From Cryomorphaceae bacterium (GTDB taxonomy: Bacteria > Bacteroidota > Bacteroidia > Flavobacteriales_D > Cryomorphaceae), in NCBI GenBank assembly GCA_003565555.1, contig PXBH01000035.1, positions 1-57,037 of the forward strand: DNA of 57,037 nt, written 5' to 3'. Within the stretch, counting starts at the first letter, position 1. Each line of letters begins with the position of its first letter. Made by a program: the position numbers and the translations under genes. Below, piece by piece: positions 1,388 through 25,402 of this stretch. The notes beneath the pieces were generated by a model. That model was given only the letters and a program-made list of their open reading frames with translations. It did no database searches and was not told the origin of the DNA.

Positions 1388-3847
1388 TCAAAAGGAATTG
1401 GCAATGCTTACGATCAAGGCCAAATTGTCTGCGGTACGCGGCGCGGCATAATGTCCGTGCAGCAGATAGCTCCCGAAACCCAAGGCCGTATAGTTTGCCG
1501 ATGTGCGGTTGAGCTTGAACCTGATGATCTCGTCGATCACCACCCCCGCCTCCAGATAGGGCTTCACCATGCGGCGGTATGGTACGGGGGCCCTTTGTTC
1601 ATTGGAGCTGCGCAAATTGCCGATCCCCGCGCTGTAAGCAATTTTCAGCTTCGGTTTCGAATACTTCCCGTCGATCCCGAAGACGGTGCCGAAATTGTGC
1701 CGAAAACCGGCATAGGCATACTCATCGGTCATAAAGTCGTAGAGGCGCATGGTCTGAAAGTAAGTAGGTGCTTCAAGGCCTACGTCTTCCTCGTTGTTCA
1801 CACCACGCCCGAAATTCAGATAGGGAAAAGCCACGCCGTCGCCCCAAATCTTACCCGCACCGCCGAACAACTGTAGCATACCGGCCCTGCGCAGGCGAAC
1901 GGCATAGGTAAGCTCCGCATCTGCACGAAAATAATCTTGTGACCCCTCCAATACATCGGGAATACCTCCTTCTGCCCGCAACCGTAAGCGCGGATATACG
2001 AATGCGGTGGGCACCAAGACATTTCCGATTTCCATCAAGGATTCTCCCGGCACCCATTGCAGCGCGGCATGCCATGAGGTATTGATGATGGAGTAGGGGG
2101 ATTGTGCCGAATTTTCAAAGACCCGCCCGGGCAAAATCATGCGTTCTTCTCTGGCGAGGCCTCCGTCCAATTTGATGCCCCTTACGGGCCGCACGGAGAG
2201 CACTGCTGAGTACTCCTCTACGGGATTCATGATTTCCGTGAAAAGGTTTCGAATGGCAAATCCTTGCGTAGCAAAGGAGTAATCGCGATCAAACACCTCC
2301 CGTCCCGGCTCATCTACATCGTTGCGGTAGCGCAGCGCAAGGTCAAAAGCATGGCTCCGGGAAAGGTGGAAAACCGCGCCCCCGCCGTACTTCATGCGGT
2401 GATCGCCGAATCCGTAACCGAACCAACCCTCCAGACTTACAAATTTTACCAGATTTCGGTTCGTGGAAATTCCTGCCCCCAACCTCAAATTTTCGTAGCG
2501 GTTTACCCGGAGTATCCTCTCGAGCAGCACATCAAATTTTCCGAATGTTACGCGGCCCGCCGCGAGCGCTCCCGACTGCTCCATGAACCAATTGAGGGCA
2601 TTGACCGCTCCGGAAGGCAGGGTGTCCCACACGGCGTAGGTATTCAGATCGGCAGAATCTGCTTCGGCCCCGCGAATGGCCTGCCAAGTGAGCTCATCCC
2701 GACTGCCCGCGCCGTCGGCAAGACGTACGCGCGCCACGTTAAAGTCTTTCCGCCCCGGAAGGTATGTGAGGTCAATATCCTGAAGAAATGTGCTGCTGTA
2801 TAGGTGCATGGACATATCGGGATCCTCACCGTCGGGATCGGAGATATTCATGGTGTAAAGGGCCTTTGACTCCTTCGGAAACCAAAATCCGTCTATTTTA
2901 CCGTAGTTTTGAATGATCTCGAAATCGAACATTTCAAGGTCGGTGGTATTGGCACCTCTGAAGTGTACGATGGCATAATTCTGCGCGTCTACAGTCACCG
3001 ATCCGGTGAGTAAATTTCCCGTTACACCGGACCGCGGCGTATAGCGAACGACGTAAACCTTTGTTCCTTCCACCAGTGCGCTGTCTGCAAGTTCAAATAC
3101 ATACTTATTTCGGCTGCCCGGACTCACGGGATTCAGGAAATCTTTCTCCATCAGGTTGATATGATCTCCGTATGTAGCGAATGGCTGAAAAGAATTTGAG
3201 ATAACGGACAAGACGGGGTTTCTGATCCCTGACATCTTCGTGGCCTGTACCGTTTCGTTCCATCTCCCGGGGCGTTTGTACACCAGGTCAGTAGAGCTTT
3301 CCATGAAGAAAAATCGGGCGTTTTTGAATCCGGTGCTGTCCAGCTCGGCTTGGATTTCCTCAGTGCGGTCCGTATCCAGTCCCGCCTTATTGTACGTGCG
3401 GAGACGAAATCCGGGAAGCGATTCCGGATCGTTCTGTTTGCGGTTTGCCGCGGCTCGGCGCATGATTTCGTAACCCGGATCATCCTTAGCCTGCACGACC
3501 ACTTCACCGAGCTCGGCGGGTTTTCTTCTCATTTCGATCTTCTCGGATGCGAGAAATTGCTCAAGCGGGAGGAAAACACGCTCGTAGCCCACACAACTCA
3601 ACACAATTTCTGTGCGAGACGGTGTGTTCGACGGAACGGCGAAACGGTAGTAGCCGTCTACATTGGACACTCCTCCGAATCTTGCCTCGCCTTCCGCAGC
3701 GAGGTGTACAAAGGGAATTCCCGCTTTCGTTTCGGCATCTCGCACCTTCCCCGAAACGGTGATTTGCCCGTATCCGGAAGTGCAAATCAAGGCTGTCGCG
3801 ATCACTGTCAGCACAGAAAGTACATGGAACGGAATCTTATTTTTCAC
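1388..3847 (-). CDS. DUF5686 outer-membrane protein with carboxypeptidase-regulatory-like N-terminal domain
   Basis: An 819-residue envelope protein. A signal peptide ending near SGYGQ is followed by ITVSGKVRDAETKAGIPFV..., a carboxypeptidase-regulatory-like (CarboxypepD_reg/DUF4480) beta-sandwich over about residues 28-115. The rest matches the large DUF5686 family found almost only in Bacteroidota, and ends in a hydrophobic beta-strand with terminal Phe (LALIVSIANSF), as expected for an outer-membrane barrel. The function of DUF5686 is unknown. The start is GTG, chosen because GTGA overlaps the stop of the upstream thioesterase gene by 4 bases, which also argues for translational coupling. 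The 3' end converges with the epimerase gene 8 bases away. Confidence 0.85.
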   Translation of the reverse strand: MKNKIPFHVLSVLTVIATALICTSGYGQITVSGKVRDAETKAGIPFVHLAAEGEARFGGVSNVDGYYRFAVPSNTPSRTEIVLSCVGYERVFLPLEQFLASEKIEMRRKPAELGEVVVQAKDDPGYEIMRRAAANRKQNDPESLPGFRLRTYNKAGLDTDRTEEIQAELDSTGFKNARFFFMESSTDLVYKRPGRWNETVQATKMSGIRNPVLSVISNSFQPFATYGDHINLMEKDFLNPVSPGSRNKYVFELADSALVEGTKVYVVRYTPRSGVTGNLLTGSVTVDAQNYAIVHFRGANTTDLEMFDFEIIQNYGKIDGFWFPKESKALYTMNISDPDGEDPDMSMHLYSSTFLQDIDLTYLPGRKDFNVARVRLADGAGSRDELTWQAIRGAEADSADLNTYAVWDTLPSGAVNALNWFMEQSGALAAGRVTFGKFDVLLERILRVNRYENLRLGAGISTNRNLVKFVSLEGWFGYGFGDHRMKYGGGAVFHLSRSHAFDLALRYRNDVDEPGREVFDRDYSFATQGFAIRNLFTEIMNPVEEYSAVLSVRPVRGIKLDGGLAREERMILPGRVFENSAQSPYSIINTSWHAALQWVPGESLMEIGNVLVPTAFVYPRLRLRAEGGIPDVLEGSQDYFRADAELTYAVRLRRAGMLQLFGGAGKIWGDGVAFPYLNFGRGVNNEEDVGLEAPTYFQTMRLYDFMTDEYAYAGFRHNFGTVFGIDGKYSKPKLKIAYSAGIGNLRSSNEQRAPVPYRRMVKPYLEAGVVIDEIIRFKLNRTSANYTALGFGSYLLHGHYAAPRTADNLALIVSIANSF

Positions 3848-10951: not shown

Positions 10952-10985
10952 TGAATAATATTTAATTTAAATTGAATAATATTTA
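10952..10985 (+). promoter_or_regulatory. Candidate operator: direct repeats upstream of DUF2089 operon
   Basis: TGAATAATATTTA occurs at 10952-10964 and again at 10973-10985, exactly 21 bp (two helical turns) apart, just upstream of a perfect -7 box at 11005. A dimeric or cooperatively binding regulator, perhaps the DUF2089 protein itself, could act here. Confidence 0.45.
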
Positions 10986-11004
10986 GTTTTTAATTGAAAA
11001 ATCA

Positions 11005-11012
11005 TATTTTTG
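11005..11012 (+). promoter_or_regulatory. -7 promoter box of DUF2089 operon
   Basis: TATTTTTG matches TAnnTTTG exactly, 17 bases before ATG 11030. It excludes the longer frame opening at 10994 as the start. Confidence 0.6.
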
Positions 11013-21356: not shown

Positions 21357-22832
21357 TCAGAAGATGTGTCCAAACCCGAGGAAGGTTTGTGAACCTTCCC
21401 TGCTCGCAGCAAAATCAAGACGTATGATGGTACTCTGATTCCAAGCCAGACGTGCGCCTATCCCGGGAGCACCCACCCACTTCTTGAAGTTCATGTCGCT
21501 CGGATGATCCCATACGCTGCCCGCATCGTAAAAGAGGTTGGCCCCAAGGTTCATTCGCTGATTCAGAATCCTGAAACTCCAAAAGCGAGTGCGGAGTTCA
21601 TAGTTCATAAGCAGCACTGTAGGAGCCAGAAAGCGGGCCTCCCTGAAGCCGCGTACCGAGCGGTCGCCTCCGAGTACAAGGATTCCCCCGGCTTCGGCCT
21701 GACTGCTGAGATCCCACATCTCGATGAAGTTGATATCATTTCCAAAAATGTAACCAAATGAGGTCATACCAGCGAAGGTTACCCTGTTCTTCCCGCCACT
21801 CCATCGCTTCAGGGTTTTGATGTATTGGCCCTGTATCATGAACTTGTGAAAGTCGAATTCAGAGCCCAGCCAGGGCACGGAATACTCATGCGAATACTGC
21901 AGGAAAATACCTTCGGAGGGGTCGGGCTCAAAATCGCGGGTATCGTAAATGAGGGCGCCGGCCAGCATGCTGGTAAATTTCCAGCGATCGCTGGCATCTT
22001 GAAACCCGGATAGGTTGAATCGATCCCAAGTGCCGTCATTCCGCTCAATGTCTACGAGGGTTTGGTTGTTGATGGCTTCTACTTCTTCACCCTCCCGATC
22101 GAAGGCCACCTCAACGGGCCGTCCGTTGTACGAACTGAAATTGGTAAAGAGCATCTCATAGCCGAACATAAGCCTCAATTTTCCGCCGAAAAAGGTGCGC
22201 TCTCCCAAGAGGTTGTACAGTTGCTCACGCTGTATCATCTCATTGAAATGGGTGTTAGACCGATAGATGCCGGCCTCGTCCTGCGTGGCAATTTGAAGGT
22301 TGTCCTCGTAATCACTTACCCTGCTGAAAGTGCGCATTCTGCCCGTAATCTGATCTGTAAAGCGCAGCGGCTGAAGGGAGTTTCGCCCGATACCCCAGTA
22401 CTGGGCATTGGGGTCTTCCCAGAGTACGGCATCAGCCCTCAACCTCCACTTGGAGTTGAATATGTAGGGCGCATCATACTGCAGCGCATAGCGAATGCGT
22501 CCGTTTTCGAAAATGAAAAACTCCGTGGACACGCGGTGCCTGTAGGGCGTGTACTCAAAGAAAGGATCGTCTTTGTCTTTGTTGATAAAGAGGAAGGCAT
22601 TTCCTCCGGCTCCGAAACCGCGTATGGGATCAAATTCTACGCGGGGCAGTCCCGTCATAAAGGTTCCCTCGCGCTTTTCTTCGATTTCCCAATCGGGCAT
22701 GCGCTTGCGCGGGTCGATATCGAAGGGAAGTGTTTTGGTGGGTATTGTGTCTTGGGCCTGCGCCAAGGGGTTCAGCAAAACCACCGAAGCAATGGCAAGC
22801 ACAGAGAGAAGGAAATTGATTCGCTTCATCAT
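21357..22832 (-). CDS. BamA/TamA-family (D15-like) outer-membrane barrel
   Basis: A 491-residue outer-membrane protein without POTRA domains. Signal peptide ends LAQAQ. The barrel resembles the surface-antigen D15/Omp85 type, with VLGGDRSVRGFREARFL (the conserved G-D-x-S-x-R-G-F/Y loop motif, lid-lock) near residues 390-405, and ends in the strand SQTFLGFGHIF with terminal Phe. Members lacking POTRA domains are common in Bacteroidota and of unknown function, possibly lipid or protein export to the surface. It lies just downstream of, and in the same direction as, a two-component system; its promoter carries tandem repeats typical of an OmpR-family regulator. Confidence 0.82.
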   Translation of the reverse strand: MMKRINFLLSVLAIASVVLLNPLAQAQDTIPTKTLPFDIDPRKRMPDWEIEEKREGTFMTGLPRVEFDPIRGFGAGGNAFLFINKDKDDPFFEYTPYRHRVSTEFFIFENGRIRYALQYDAPYIFNSKWRLRADAVLWEDPNAQYWGIGRNSLQPLRFTDQITGRMRTFSRVSDYEDNLQIATQDEAGIYRSNTHFNEMIQREQLYNLLGERTFFGGKLRLMFGYEMLFTNFSSYNGRPVEVAFDREGEEVEAINNQTLVDIERNDGTWDRFNLSGFQDASDRWKFTSMLAGALIYDTRDFEPDPSEGIFLQYSHEYSVPWLGSEFDFHKFMIQGQYIKTLKRWSGGKNRVTFAGMTSFGYIFGNDINFIEMWDLSSQAEAGGILVLGGDRSVRGFREARFLAPTVLLMNYELRTRFWSFRILNQRMNLGANLFYDAGSVWDHPSDMNFKKWVGAPGIGARLAWNQSTIIRLDFAASREGSQTFLGFGHIF

Positions 22833-22947: not shown

Positions 22948-22955
22948 CAAACCTA
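22948..22955 (-). promoter_or_regulatory. -7 promoter box of the D15-like gene
   Basis: Minus strand TAGGTTTG, exact TAnnTTTG, about 115 bases before the ATG at 22832. Confidence 0.6.
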
Positions 22956-22976
22956 CGGCTCAGAACTGCTGGCTCA

Positions 22977-23019
22977 CCTTAGAAAGCCTATAGAATACCA
23001 TTAGAAAACCATTAGAAAT
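22977..23019 (-). promoter_or_regulatory. Four tandem 11-bp repeats, candidate response-regulator binding array
   Basis: On the plus strand the units read CCTTAGAAAG, CCTATAGAATA, CCATTAGAAAA and CCATTAGAAAT, spaced 10, 11 and 11 bp. On the transcribed strand this is a repeated TTTCTAATGG. The array begins about 21 bp upstream of the -7 box, so it covers the -33 region. OmpR/PhoB-family regulators bind such 11-bp direct repeats, and an OmpR-type regulator is encoded next door (24490-25179). Confidence 0.6.
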
Positions 23020-23125: not shown

Positions 23126-24493
23126 TCAGGGTTTGTCCTGCAAGTCAATGCGCATGGTGGTACCCCCCTTTTCGGATGATACACGGATGTGCCCCTCGTG
23201 CAGGTCGATGATCCGTTTGGTAAGCGACAAGCCAATGCCGCTTCCCCTTGCCTTGTCACGGTTTTCGCCGCGGAAAAAAGCCTCAAAAAGCTGTGCGAGG
23301 TCTTCCTCAGGAATGCCAGGCCCTCGGTCGCTGAAAGCCATTTCGATGCGGTTTTTCTGAGCCTCGATGCGCACTTCACAGGTTTTATCGGGCGAGAATT
23401 TGCAGGCATTGTCCATCACATTTGCAAAGGCTACGCGTAGCAAGTAGGCATTGGCCTTGAGCTGCAAGTTGGCGTCGGGGTCGTGTGCTTCGCTAAAGCC
23501 CAAGTCGATGTGATAGTCTGGATTGGCCTGCTTGAGGGCTCCCACAGCTTCCATCATTAGCTCGTCGATGCGCAAAGTTTCAAATGTGATCTGACTGGGG
23601 TCGTAGCTGGCTTTCGCCAAATCGAGGAGACCACCCGAGATCCGCGAAAGCCTTCGTGCATCGCCCAGAGCCAGTTGTATGGCCGATTTCAATTCCTCCG
23701 TATTGCGCTCGCTATGGAGCGCCAGCTCAAGCTCGGCGATAATGGCCGCCAGTGGGGTGCGCAGCTCGTGGGCCACGTTGTGCACAAAATGTTTTTGCGC
23801 ATCAAAGCTTTGCTCCAAGCGGTTGAGCATGCCATTGAAGGTGTCGGCCAGTTCGGAGAGCTCGTCGCGGTATGGGCCCGTGTCCAGCCTCAAGTCCATG
23901 TTGGTGGCGCTGATGCGCAGGGCTTTTTCGTTCATCCGCCGCACCGGCTCCAAGGCCCTTTTACTGAAAAAGTAACCTCCCAGGCCCAGCACGAGCAATG
24001 CTACCAAGCCCGTGATGCCCATGTTGTAGCGCAAGTTGGCCAGCTTGGTAAAGCCATAGTCGTCAAAGGCCGCCGCCGTGATGGCATAGTCGCGGCCATC
24101 GTGCGCTACGCGCAGCCCTACCACCTGCCAGTCACCTTCGTAAAAGGCTACCTCTCCCTTTTGGAGGATTTCGGCAATCAATTCAGGATTCTCCTTCACG
24201 TAGTCAATGTCTACCGCGTCGTGGTAGAGCAGCTCGAATGGAGGCGCGTAAATGGCTGCTTCTACTTCGTAAATCAGTTCCCGGTTGCTGCGGTAGATAT
24301 TTTGCAAAAGCTGCTCCGGTACCTTGGCATCGAAGTAGAGGTTGGCTTTGGTGATGGCCTCGCTGCGCAGTAGGCGGTAAAACTCGCGCTCCCTGCTCTG
24401 GCTGGCTCCGTAGTACACCACCAGCGCAAAGGCCAGCAAGATGCCTGCGGTGATGAGCCCAAAAAGCAGGGTGAGTCGGCTGCGGAGTTTCAC
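23126..24493 (-). CDS. Sensor histidine kinase with HAMP domain
   Basis: A 455-residue membrane kinase. Membrane helices lie at about 8-28 and 157-176, flanking a periplasmic sensor of about 125 residues. HAMP covers about 177-230. The HisKA domain has phosphoacceptor H242 (HNVAHELRTPLAA). The ATPase domain has N358/N362 (NVMDNACKF), G1 DRGPGIPEED (389-398) and G2 GSGIGLSLTKRI (417-428). All catalytic parts are intact. Its ATG overlaps the regulator's stop by 4 bases (ATGA), so the two form one operon. The signal is unknown; the neighbouring target gene suggests an envelope cue. Confidence 0.93.
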   Translation of the reverse strand: MKLRSRLTLLFGLITAGILLAFALVVYYGASQSREREFYRLLRSEAITKANLYFDAKVPEQLLQNIYRSNRELIYEVEAAIYAPPFELLYHDAVDIDYVKENPELIAEILQKGEVAFYEGDWQVVGLRVAHDGRDYAITAAAFDDYGFTKLANLRYNMGITGLVALLVLGLGGYFFSKRALEPVRRMNEKALRISATNMDLRLDTGPYRDELSELADTFNGMLNRLEQSFDAQKHFVHNVAHELRTPLAAIIAELELALHSERNTEELKSAIQLALGDARRLSRISGGLLDLAKASYDPSQITFETLRIDELMMEAVGALKQANPDYHIDLGFSEAHDPDANLQLKANAYLLRVAFANVMDNACKFSPDKTCEVRIEAQKNRIEMAFSDRGPGIPEEDLAQLFEAFFRGENRDKARGSGIGLSLTKRIIDLHEGHIRVSSEKGGTTMRIDLQDKP

Positions 24494-25179
24494 GGCGTAC
24501 TTTTTTCTTCGCGGAGCATGAAACCCACTCCGGTTTTGGTGTGAATGAGTTTTTGGCCAAAGCCCTTGTCGACTTTCTTACGCAGGTAATTGATGTATAC
24601 ATCGATGAAGTTGGTGCCTGTGTCAAAGTCCATCTCCCACACTTCCCTCGAGATTTCCTCACGGCTCAATACGCGCTCCGGATGTTTGATGAGAAATTCG
24701 AGCAGCTTGAATTCTTTTGGCGTAAGCGATACCGCCTGCCCGTCCCGCGATACCTCCATGGTTTTGGTATTGAGCTCCAGATCGGCAAAGCGAAAAAGCT
24801 CCTTCTGAGGCGCCACCTCTTGCCTGCGCTTGAGTACCGCACGGATACGTGCCATGAGCTCGCGCATTTCAAATGGTTTTACCAGGTAGTCGTCGGCGCC
24901 GGCGTCGAGGCCCTCCACCTTATCGTCGGTAGTGCCAAGGGCGGTGAGCATGATGATTGGGAGCCTGGGCTTGCTGTTTCGTAGGCTTTTGCAAAGGGCC
25001 ACCCCGTCTTGGCCCGGCAGTACAATGTCGGTAATTACCAGGCCGTATGGATGCTGATCGGCGAGTTTTTGGCCCATCAGTCCGTCGTAGGCATTGCTCA
25101 CGGTATAGCCTTCTTCTTCCAGCCCGCGCTTGAGGAGCTCGGCTACCCTGGGGTCGTCTTCCACTACGAGGATGCGCAT
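24490..25179 (-). CDS. OmpR-family response regulator
   Basis: A 229-residue regulator: receiver domain with D8, D9, phosphoacceptor D51 (VITDIVLPG), T79 and K101, and a C-terminal winged helix (FADLELNTKTMEVSRDGQAVSLTPKEFKLLEFLIKHPERVLSREEI...INYLRKKVDKGFGQKLIHTKTGVGFML). The frame is open to 25251, but a perfect -7 box at 25230-25237 and the canonical start MRILVVEDDP identify ATG 25179. It is coupled to the histidine kinase. The array of 11-bp repeats before the D15-like gene is a likely target. Confidence 0.95.
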   Translation of the reverse strand: MRILVVEDDPRVAELLKRGLEEEGYTVSNAYDGLMGQKLADQHPYGLVITDIVLPGQDGVALCKSLRNSKPRLPIIMLTALGTTDDKVEGLDAGADDYLVKPFEMRELMARIRAVLKRRQEVAPQKELFRFADLELNTKTMEVSRDGQAVSLTPKEFKLLEFLIKHPERVLSREEISREVWEMDFDTGTNFIDVYINYLRKKVDKGFGQKLIHTKTGVGFMLREEKSTP

Positions 25180-25229
25180 GGCGGGCTTTTTGATTTTGGC
25201 GGCAGCTTCTGCGAGATGCCTGCTGTCGG

Positions 25230-25237
25230 CAAAGGTA
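25230..25237 (-). promoter_or_regulatory. -7 promoter box of the two-component operon
   Basis: Minus strand TACCTTTG, exact TAnnTTTG. No copies of the 11-bp repeat are seen upstream, so autoregulation through that motif is not evident. Confidence 0.6.
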
Positions 25238-25402
25238 GCACGATAGAGCATAGTCCCTGCCTCGTTCGTGTCGGTGATTCAATCGGCCGTGAATCGGTGT
25301 TGTCTGCGCGGGGGGTATTTCCCTTTGCGGAAAATCTGTTCCTCCTCTGCGGTGTGCTGTTCTCAGCAGGCTTATCTTTAACGATTTAAATCAAAGCCTG
25401 CT

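Follow-up and report, generated by a model that had tools for sequence, protein, structure and literature searches.

The window analyzed in this study (57,037 nucleotides of contig PXBH01000035.1 from a Cryomorphaceae bacterium, genome G000) contains three neighboring genes on the minus strand: an OmpR/PhoB-type response regulator with REC and Trans_reg_C domains (24490..25179), the proposed operator-binding protein; a sensor histidine kinase with HAMP, HisKA, and HATPase_c domains and the periplasmic signature YHDAVDIDYVKE (23126..24493); and the putative target gene, encoding an outer-membrane barrel of 491 aa (21357..22832). Coordinates and strands of all three were correct in the initial annotation. 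The intergenic DNA that separates the end of the kinase gene (23126) from the start of the barrel gene (22832) contains, on its minus strand, an array of four tandem 11-bp units, 5'-TTTCTAATGGT TTTCTAATGGT ATTCTATAGGC TTTCTAAGGTG-3' (22974..23018), followed by a 23-nt linker from the last TCTAA core (22956..22978) and the Bacteroidota -7 promoter box TAGGTTTG (22948..22955), an exact TAnnTTTG, as had been claimed. Across array and box this strand reads ...CCCCTTATTTCTAATGGTTTTCTAATGGTATTCTATAGGCTTTCTAAGGTGAGCCAGCAGTTCTGAGCCGTAGGTTTG..., with the cores TCTAA, TCTAA, TCTAT, and TCTAA in order (on the plus strand, TAGAAA at 22980, TAGAAT at 22991, TAGAAA at 23002, and TAGAAA at 23013). The four units proposed earlier are therefore real, but their steps are exactly 11, 11, and 11 bp rather than 10, 11, and 11. 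Neither TTG nor TTTG occurs at the expected -33 position, again as first noted, so this promoter has the TAnnTTTG box of Bacteroidota primary-sigma promoters and lacks their -33 TTG/TTTG element. Direct repeats of 11 bp are established binding sites of OmpR/PhoB regulators, which can stand in for the upstream promoter element, and the array has the form of a PhoB-type operator, with tandem 11-bp units at a constant distance from the core promoter. A probable -7 box for the regulator-kinase operon, TACCTTTG (25230..25237, minus strand), is not preceded by a TCTAA array. A longer regulator reading frame (24490-25251) was discarded, since this box and the starts of the orthologues favor 25179.

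The regulator belongs to the OmpR/PhoB family (PF00072 at 1.8e-31 and PF00486 at 5.9e-26, both over cut-off) and is nearest to CzcR/CztR/SilR/CopR, yet scores below TIGR01387 (238.0 vs 279.2 bits); the PhoB models are missed as well (TIGR02154, 203.1 vs 296.2 bits; NF053854, 183.8 vs 270 bits). The kinase is likewise nearest to CzcS/CztS/SilS/CopS, yet falls short of TIGR01386 (227.1 vs 292.55 bits). Because both proteins are under the curated cut-offs, neither was filed in the heavy-metal families. The barrel combines a DUF5982 domain (PF19412) with an Omp85 superfamily domain (PF01103, 71.9 bits against a cut-off of 24) and matches NF047779 (467.9 vs 200 bits), so that its earlier description as D15-like was fair. 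It scores below the BamA and TamA models (36.5 vs 297.15 and 19 vs 625 bits), and a profile search found no POTRA domain in the protein. A structure prediction made from four sequences reached a mean pLDDT of just 29.5.

Tandem Repeats Finder recovered the array at 22979-23018 (period 11, 3.6 copies, score 52), ranking it second by score in the window. The window's strongest tandem array is a 21-bp repeat at 10952-11002, which adjoins a TATTTTTG box at 11005. A combined score for four TCTAA units in 11-bp register that end 23 nt ahead of a TAnnTTTG box reached 19 of 20 at this site, whereas none of 100 dinucleotide shuffles of the entire window scored above 12. The four TCTAA units alone scored 19, against 16 or less in 40 shuffles, and 11-bp self-identity calculated without reference to any unit was 24/33, against 22 or less in 100 shuffles. 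TAnnTTTG by itself is commonplace (37 occurrences in the window, with 23 expected), so the rarity lies in the combination of array, spacing, and box. Short tandem arrays can arise through slippage, and this frequency of TAnnTTTG would also suit a chance arrangement or a neutral microsatellite. Such an origin is nonetheless extremely improbable given the shuffle tests and the absence of control matches in 395 genomes, and it is refuted by conservation, as the phase and spacing of the units are kept across many families while the flanks diverge.

Fifteen sites could be aligned, with mean information contents of 1.24 bits per position in the repeat block, 1.72 in the -7 box, 0.29 in the flanks, and 0.26 in the linker (positions -18 to -1). 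The TCTAA cores hardly varied among these sites, the position and sequence type of the -7 box were invariant, and the linker was constant in length, free in sequence, and devoid of a conserved -33 TTG. The 23-nt spacing served to find some of the sites; seven sites found without using it also have 23 nt, five through barrel homology (G008, G780, G779, G493, and G699), one through a repeat-only pattern (G651), and one through regulator homology (G563). A related site in G469 is spaced 24 nt, and one in G762 has a weaker -7 box. A constant length combined with free sequence is what would be expected if a protein bridges operator and polymerase. The sign of regulation is not readable from sequence, and a protein bound at the last unit, which overlaps the -33 region, could keep polymerase out; the regulator, or its unphosphorylated form, might thus repress or block the barrel promoter from the array. 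We regard repression as quite unlikely, since the invariant spacing and the lack of a conserved -33 element suit activation through polymerase contact, whereas repressor sites usually tolerate altered spacing.

The same arrangement precedes the barrel gene in related genomes. Barrel orthologues at 64-70% identity were identified in G008 (L052), G493 (L107), G699 (L108), G651 (L100), G779 (JAIUMH010000058, L064), and G780 (PXBV01000205, L065), and two more in the same identity range were reached through the DNA pattern (G355, L105/L067; G377, L106). In G002, which has a copy at 98%, the contig stops within the gene. An array with the identical 23-nt spacing was present at 7/7 of the other orthologues whose own promoter was readable (G008, G780, G779, G493, G699, G355, and G377), and the sequence flanking the array was not conserved among them. 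A lack of conservation upstream of orthologous barrels had been named at the outset as refuting the proposal; the array was instead conserved wherever a 64-70% orthologue had a readable promoter of its own. The number of units varies: at the G779 site the box is preceded by three in-register cores, not four, with two more cores farther upstream, and the G355 site shows three clear ones. The barrel gene of G651 comes third in an mgtC-mgtE-barrel operon, where a four-unit array with 23-nt spacing lies ahead of mgtC. The f55 barrels (about 45-52% identity in blast alignments) had no array upstream, and a regulator orthologue was not found in the two f55 genomes tested (G542 and G598, E<=1e-50). 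G509 has the mgtC-mgtE-barrel operon and no regulator orthologue was found there; its promoter is unreadable because the contig begins within mgtC. Barrels at 35-37% identity were taken as paralogues and are mostly placed after another kinase. Among these paralogous DUF5982/Omp85 barrels, those at ~35% identity in L092, L093, L094, L096, L097, and L099 follow a different histidine kinase, and several have a conserved TTTCTTCTAAATCGC..GTTTTGCAGG element right ahead of the start.

The order regulator-kinase-array-barrel is kept in the window and in G008, G780, G493, G699, and G377, which supports the three-gene module of the initial annotation in five relatives. The module is not fixed, however, as the array is also found at mgtC/mgtE and CzcB-CzcA operons. 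In G779 and G651 the orthologous regulator-kinase pair is unlinked to the barrel and lies elsewhere in the genome; in G779 a P-type cation ATPase gene is directly upstream of the regulator.

A search blind to protein content, using the pattern TCTAN7TCTAN7TCTAN24TANNTTTG in 395 class-level genomes, returned 8 sites in 8 genomes, compared to 0 for the reversed control. Six of these genomes (G000, G493, G699, G591, G647, and G683) have an orthologue of the regulator no more than about 2 kb from the site; leaving the window aside, this holds for 5/7 of the sites. In G651 the regulator orthologue is elsewhere in the genome, and in G503 searches for regulator (E<=1e-66) and kinase (E<=1e-30) orthologues found none, despite the array. 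Counted at the genome level with regulators at E<=1e-80, the regulator occurs in 6/8 array-positive genomes and in 10/387 others (Fisher p = 4e-8, or 8e-7 once the window's genome is left out); since seven candidates per genome were scored, some regulators may be missed in these counts. Near other regulator orthologues the array was degenerate or spaced 24 nt (G748, G762, and G469) or was not recognizable (G475 and G765). Two further patterns were set aside. A two-unit pattern gave 7 matches in 399 order-level genomes against 3 for reversed controls, with at least one match (L066) probably due to chance, and it misses the window because the third core there is TCTAT; a TCTAA triplet search allowing 2 mismatches was swamped by noise in A+T-rich genomes.

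In the regulator, the recognition-helix segment FDTGTNFIDVYINYLRKK is near-invariant among array-bearing genomes, all of which contain the pattern TGTN-F/Y-I/V-DVY-x-x-YLR; most paralogues have TNV.. or TNT.. at this place. On the tree, the regulators of array-bearing genomes cluster well beyond shuffled labels, though its backbone is poorly resolved and it did not show them as a single supported clade. The periplasmic region of the kinase reads LxYHDAV(D/E)IDxVKET in most orthologues and this motif is missing from paralogous kinases; its acidic/His patch is a possible, and plausible, divalent-cation site.

Behind paralogous regulator-kinase pairs there are also 11-bp arrays, with units either related or different, and a target gene comes next, so the placement of an array behind the kinase is a habit of the wider clade. 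In a second regulator-kinase clade (L077, L073, L074, L075, and L076), long TCTAAT/TTTTAAT 11-bp arrays, with at least six units each in L077 and L073, come before a gene for a soluble-looking protein of ~170 aa. In the window's genome, locus L062 (G000:C17:1-9000) has a paralogous pair (kinase 1776-3047), behind which come TTAAGG-type 11-bp repeats and a gene of 446 aa; other members of this gene's family (..AGLPMAASKIYF..) occur after related kinases in L061 and L078 and close to the module in L106 and L108. A five-unit TTCTAA(G/A)C-type 11-bp array at L206:4420-4470 (G699:C23) has no recognizable target, and a -7 box was not seen 23 nt from it. The array in the window might instead bind a different OmpR-family regulator encoded in its genome rather than the adjacent one: the similar TCTAAT/TTTTAAT arrays behind wider-clade paralogues indicate a code common to the clade, and G503 has an array with no orthologous pair found. 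This possibility has a low probability, because the array lies beside a regulator of the adjacent type in six class-level genomes with gene order conserved, because the f55 genomes lack the array and, in the two tested, also the regulator, and because the C17 paralogue of the window's own genome has a different, TTAAGG-type array.

In other relatives the array precedes genes for cation transport. It lies before mgtC-mgtE in G309, where two units also stand ahead of the regulator gene itself, and in G563, where a gene for a CzcB-like adaptor comes next; before mgtE-CzcB-CzcA in G591; before CzcB-CzcA in G647; and, as a perfect four-unit operator (L195:6714-6776), before a CzcB-CzcA operon with an OEP gene in G503. 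In G683 it precedes a 442-aa gene of no family, divergent from the regulator-kinase pair. The families are MgtC (PF02308) and MgtE (PF01769/TIGR00400, the latter passed by the G591 protein), with the G563 MgtC, MgtE, and adaptor named by likeness to tested G762 proteins; the CzcA members behind the array score 879-936 bits against the TIGR00914 (CusA/CzcA) cut-off of 701. In the window's genome no MgtC was found and the one MgtE has no array, which leaves the relatives as the basis of the cation link in that genome.

These gene identities, together with the array, its spacing and conservation, and its co-occurrence with the regulator, lead us to infer binding by the regulator, activation rather than repression, and metal as the signal. 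Positions 22948-23018 are, in all likelihood, a regulated promoter at which the adjacent regulator binds the array and, as first proposed, directly activates the barrel gene, in what would be a divalent metal-cation response. The kinase (23126-24493) would phosphorylate the adjacent regulator (24490-25179), two dimers of which would bind head-to-tail along one face of the DNA and occupy the four 11-bp TCTAAtrg units. The unit nearest the box would overlie the place of the missing -33 element, and the constant distance to the TAnnTTTG box would let the regulator touch RNA polymerase and recruit it, activating the DUF5982-Omp85 barrel gene. The regulon would then be a divalent metal-cation response, with mgtC-mgtE, mgtE-CzcB-CzcA, and CzcB-CzcA in relatives under the same operator.

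There is an alternative view of the signal, in which the regulator binds the array but responds to general envelope stress or to damage in lipid or outer-membrane assembly, the transport genes being lineage-specific additions. The direct target in the window is an Omp85-superfamily outer-membrane barrel, in G748 the gene after the kinase encodes an OprB-type porin, paralogous pairs sit before unrelated genes, and G000 has no mgtC, all of which would be compatible with such a signal. It nevertheless appears rather unlikely: six other array operons (G651, G309, G563, G591, G647, and G503) carry MgtC/MgtE or CzcB-CzcA, and the regulator and kinase are closest to heavy-metal families. Divalent cations are thus the likelier signal, given that the array also precedes the mgtC/mgtE and CzcB-CzcA operons.

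Several known systems share parts of this proposed response. Direct-repeat operators of OmpR/PhoB-family regulators, such as the pho box of PhoB, sit where the upstream promoter element would otherwise be, and the window resembles them in its winged-helix regulator, its 11-bp head-to-tail repeats, and the position of its operator. It differs from the PhoB-pho box in its half-site (TCTAAtrg), its four units, its TAnnTTTG promoter at a constant 23 nt, and a regulator under the PhoB cut-offs. CzcRS/CopRS/SilRS are the best-scoring families for regulator and kinase, and the array in relatives precedes CzcB-CzcA-type RND efflux operons; however, both proteins are below those cut-offs, and the sites are tandem direct repeats instead of the palindromic copper box recognized by CusR/CopR. 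In the PhoP-PhoQ magnesium response, MgtC is controlled by an OmpR-family regulator and MgtA/MgtB are targets. The system described here is similar in placing MgtC under an OmpR-family regulator and in the acidic patch proposed for the kinase sensor, but the best models for its regulator are heavy-metal rather than PhoP, its targets include MgtE and CzcA rather than MgtA/MgtB, and its signal is putative. In Riemerella anatipestifer (Flavobacteriales), the binding motif of the OmpR-type PhoPR has been mapped genome-wide and one target is an outer-membrane beta-barrel; the motif core, TTTAACA, differs from the TCTAA arrays (PMC9603813). The non-subscription literature searched contained no description of the TCTAA operator, of a DUF5982 barrel in a comparable setting, or of a regulon of this type, and none was found under two-component control of MgtC/MgtE or heavy-metal regulators in Flavobacteria. 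The type of mechanism is therefore known, and the operator, the regulon, and the barrel link appear to be new.

More tentatively, the locus could belong to an undescribed, Bacteroidota-wide divalent-cation regulon marked by the four-unit TCTAA operator and the sensor motif YHDAVDIDxVKET, in which the barrel may serve as an outer-membrane route or guard for Mg2+ or transition metals alongside MgtC/MgtE and CzcCBA. Response-regulator binding sites have rarely been described in Bacteroidota, and the TCTAA array can be read by eye at an invariant distance from the -7 box. The findings also suggest a general rule for this regulator clade, with the operator directly behind the kinase gene, which would make targets predictable from sequence. 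Through the array, mgtC-mgtE and CzcB-CzcA operons of several families gain a putative regulator, and an uncharacterized Omp85-family barrel gains its first functional lead, a possible role in divalent-cation balance.
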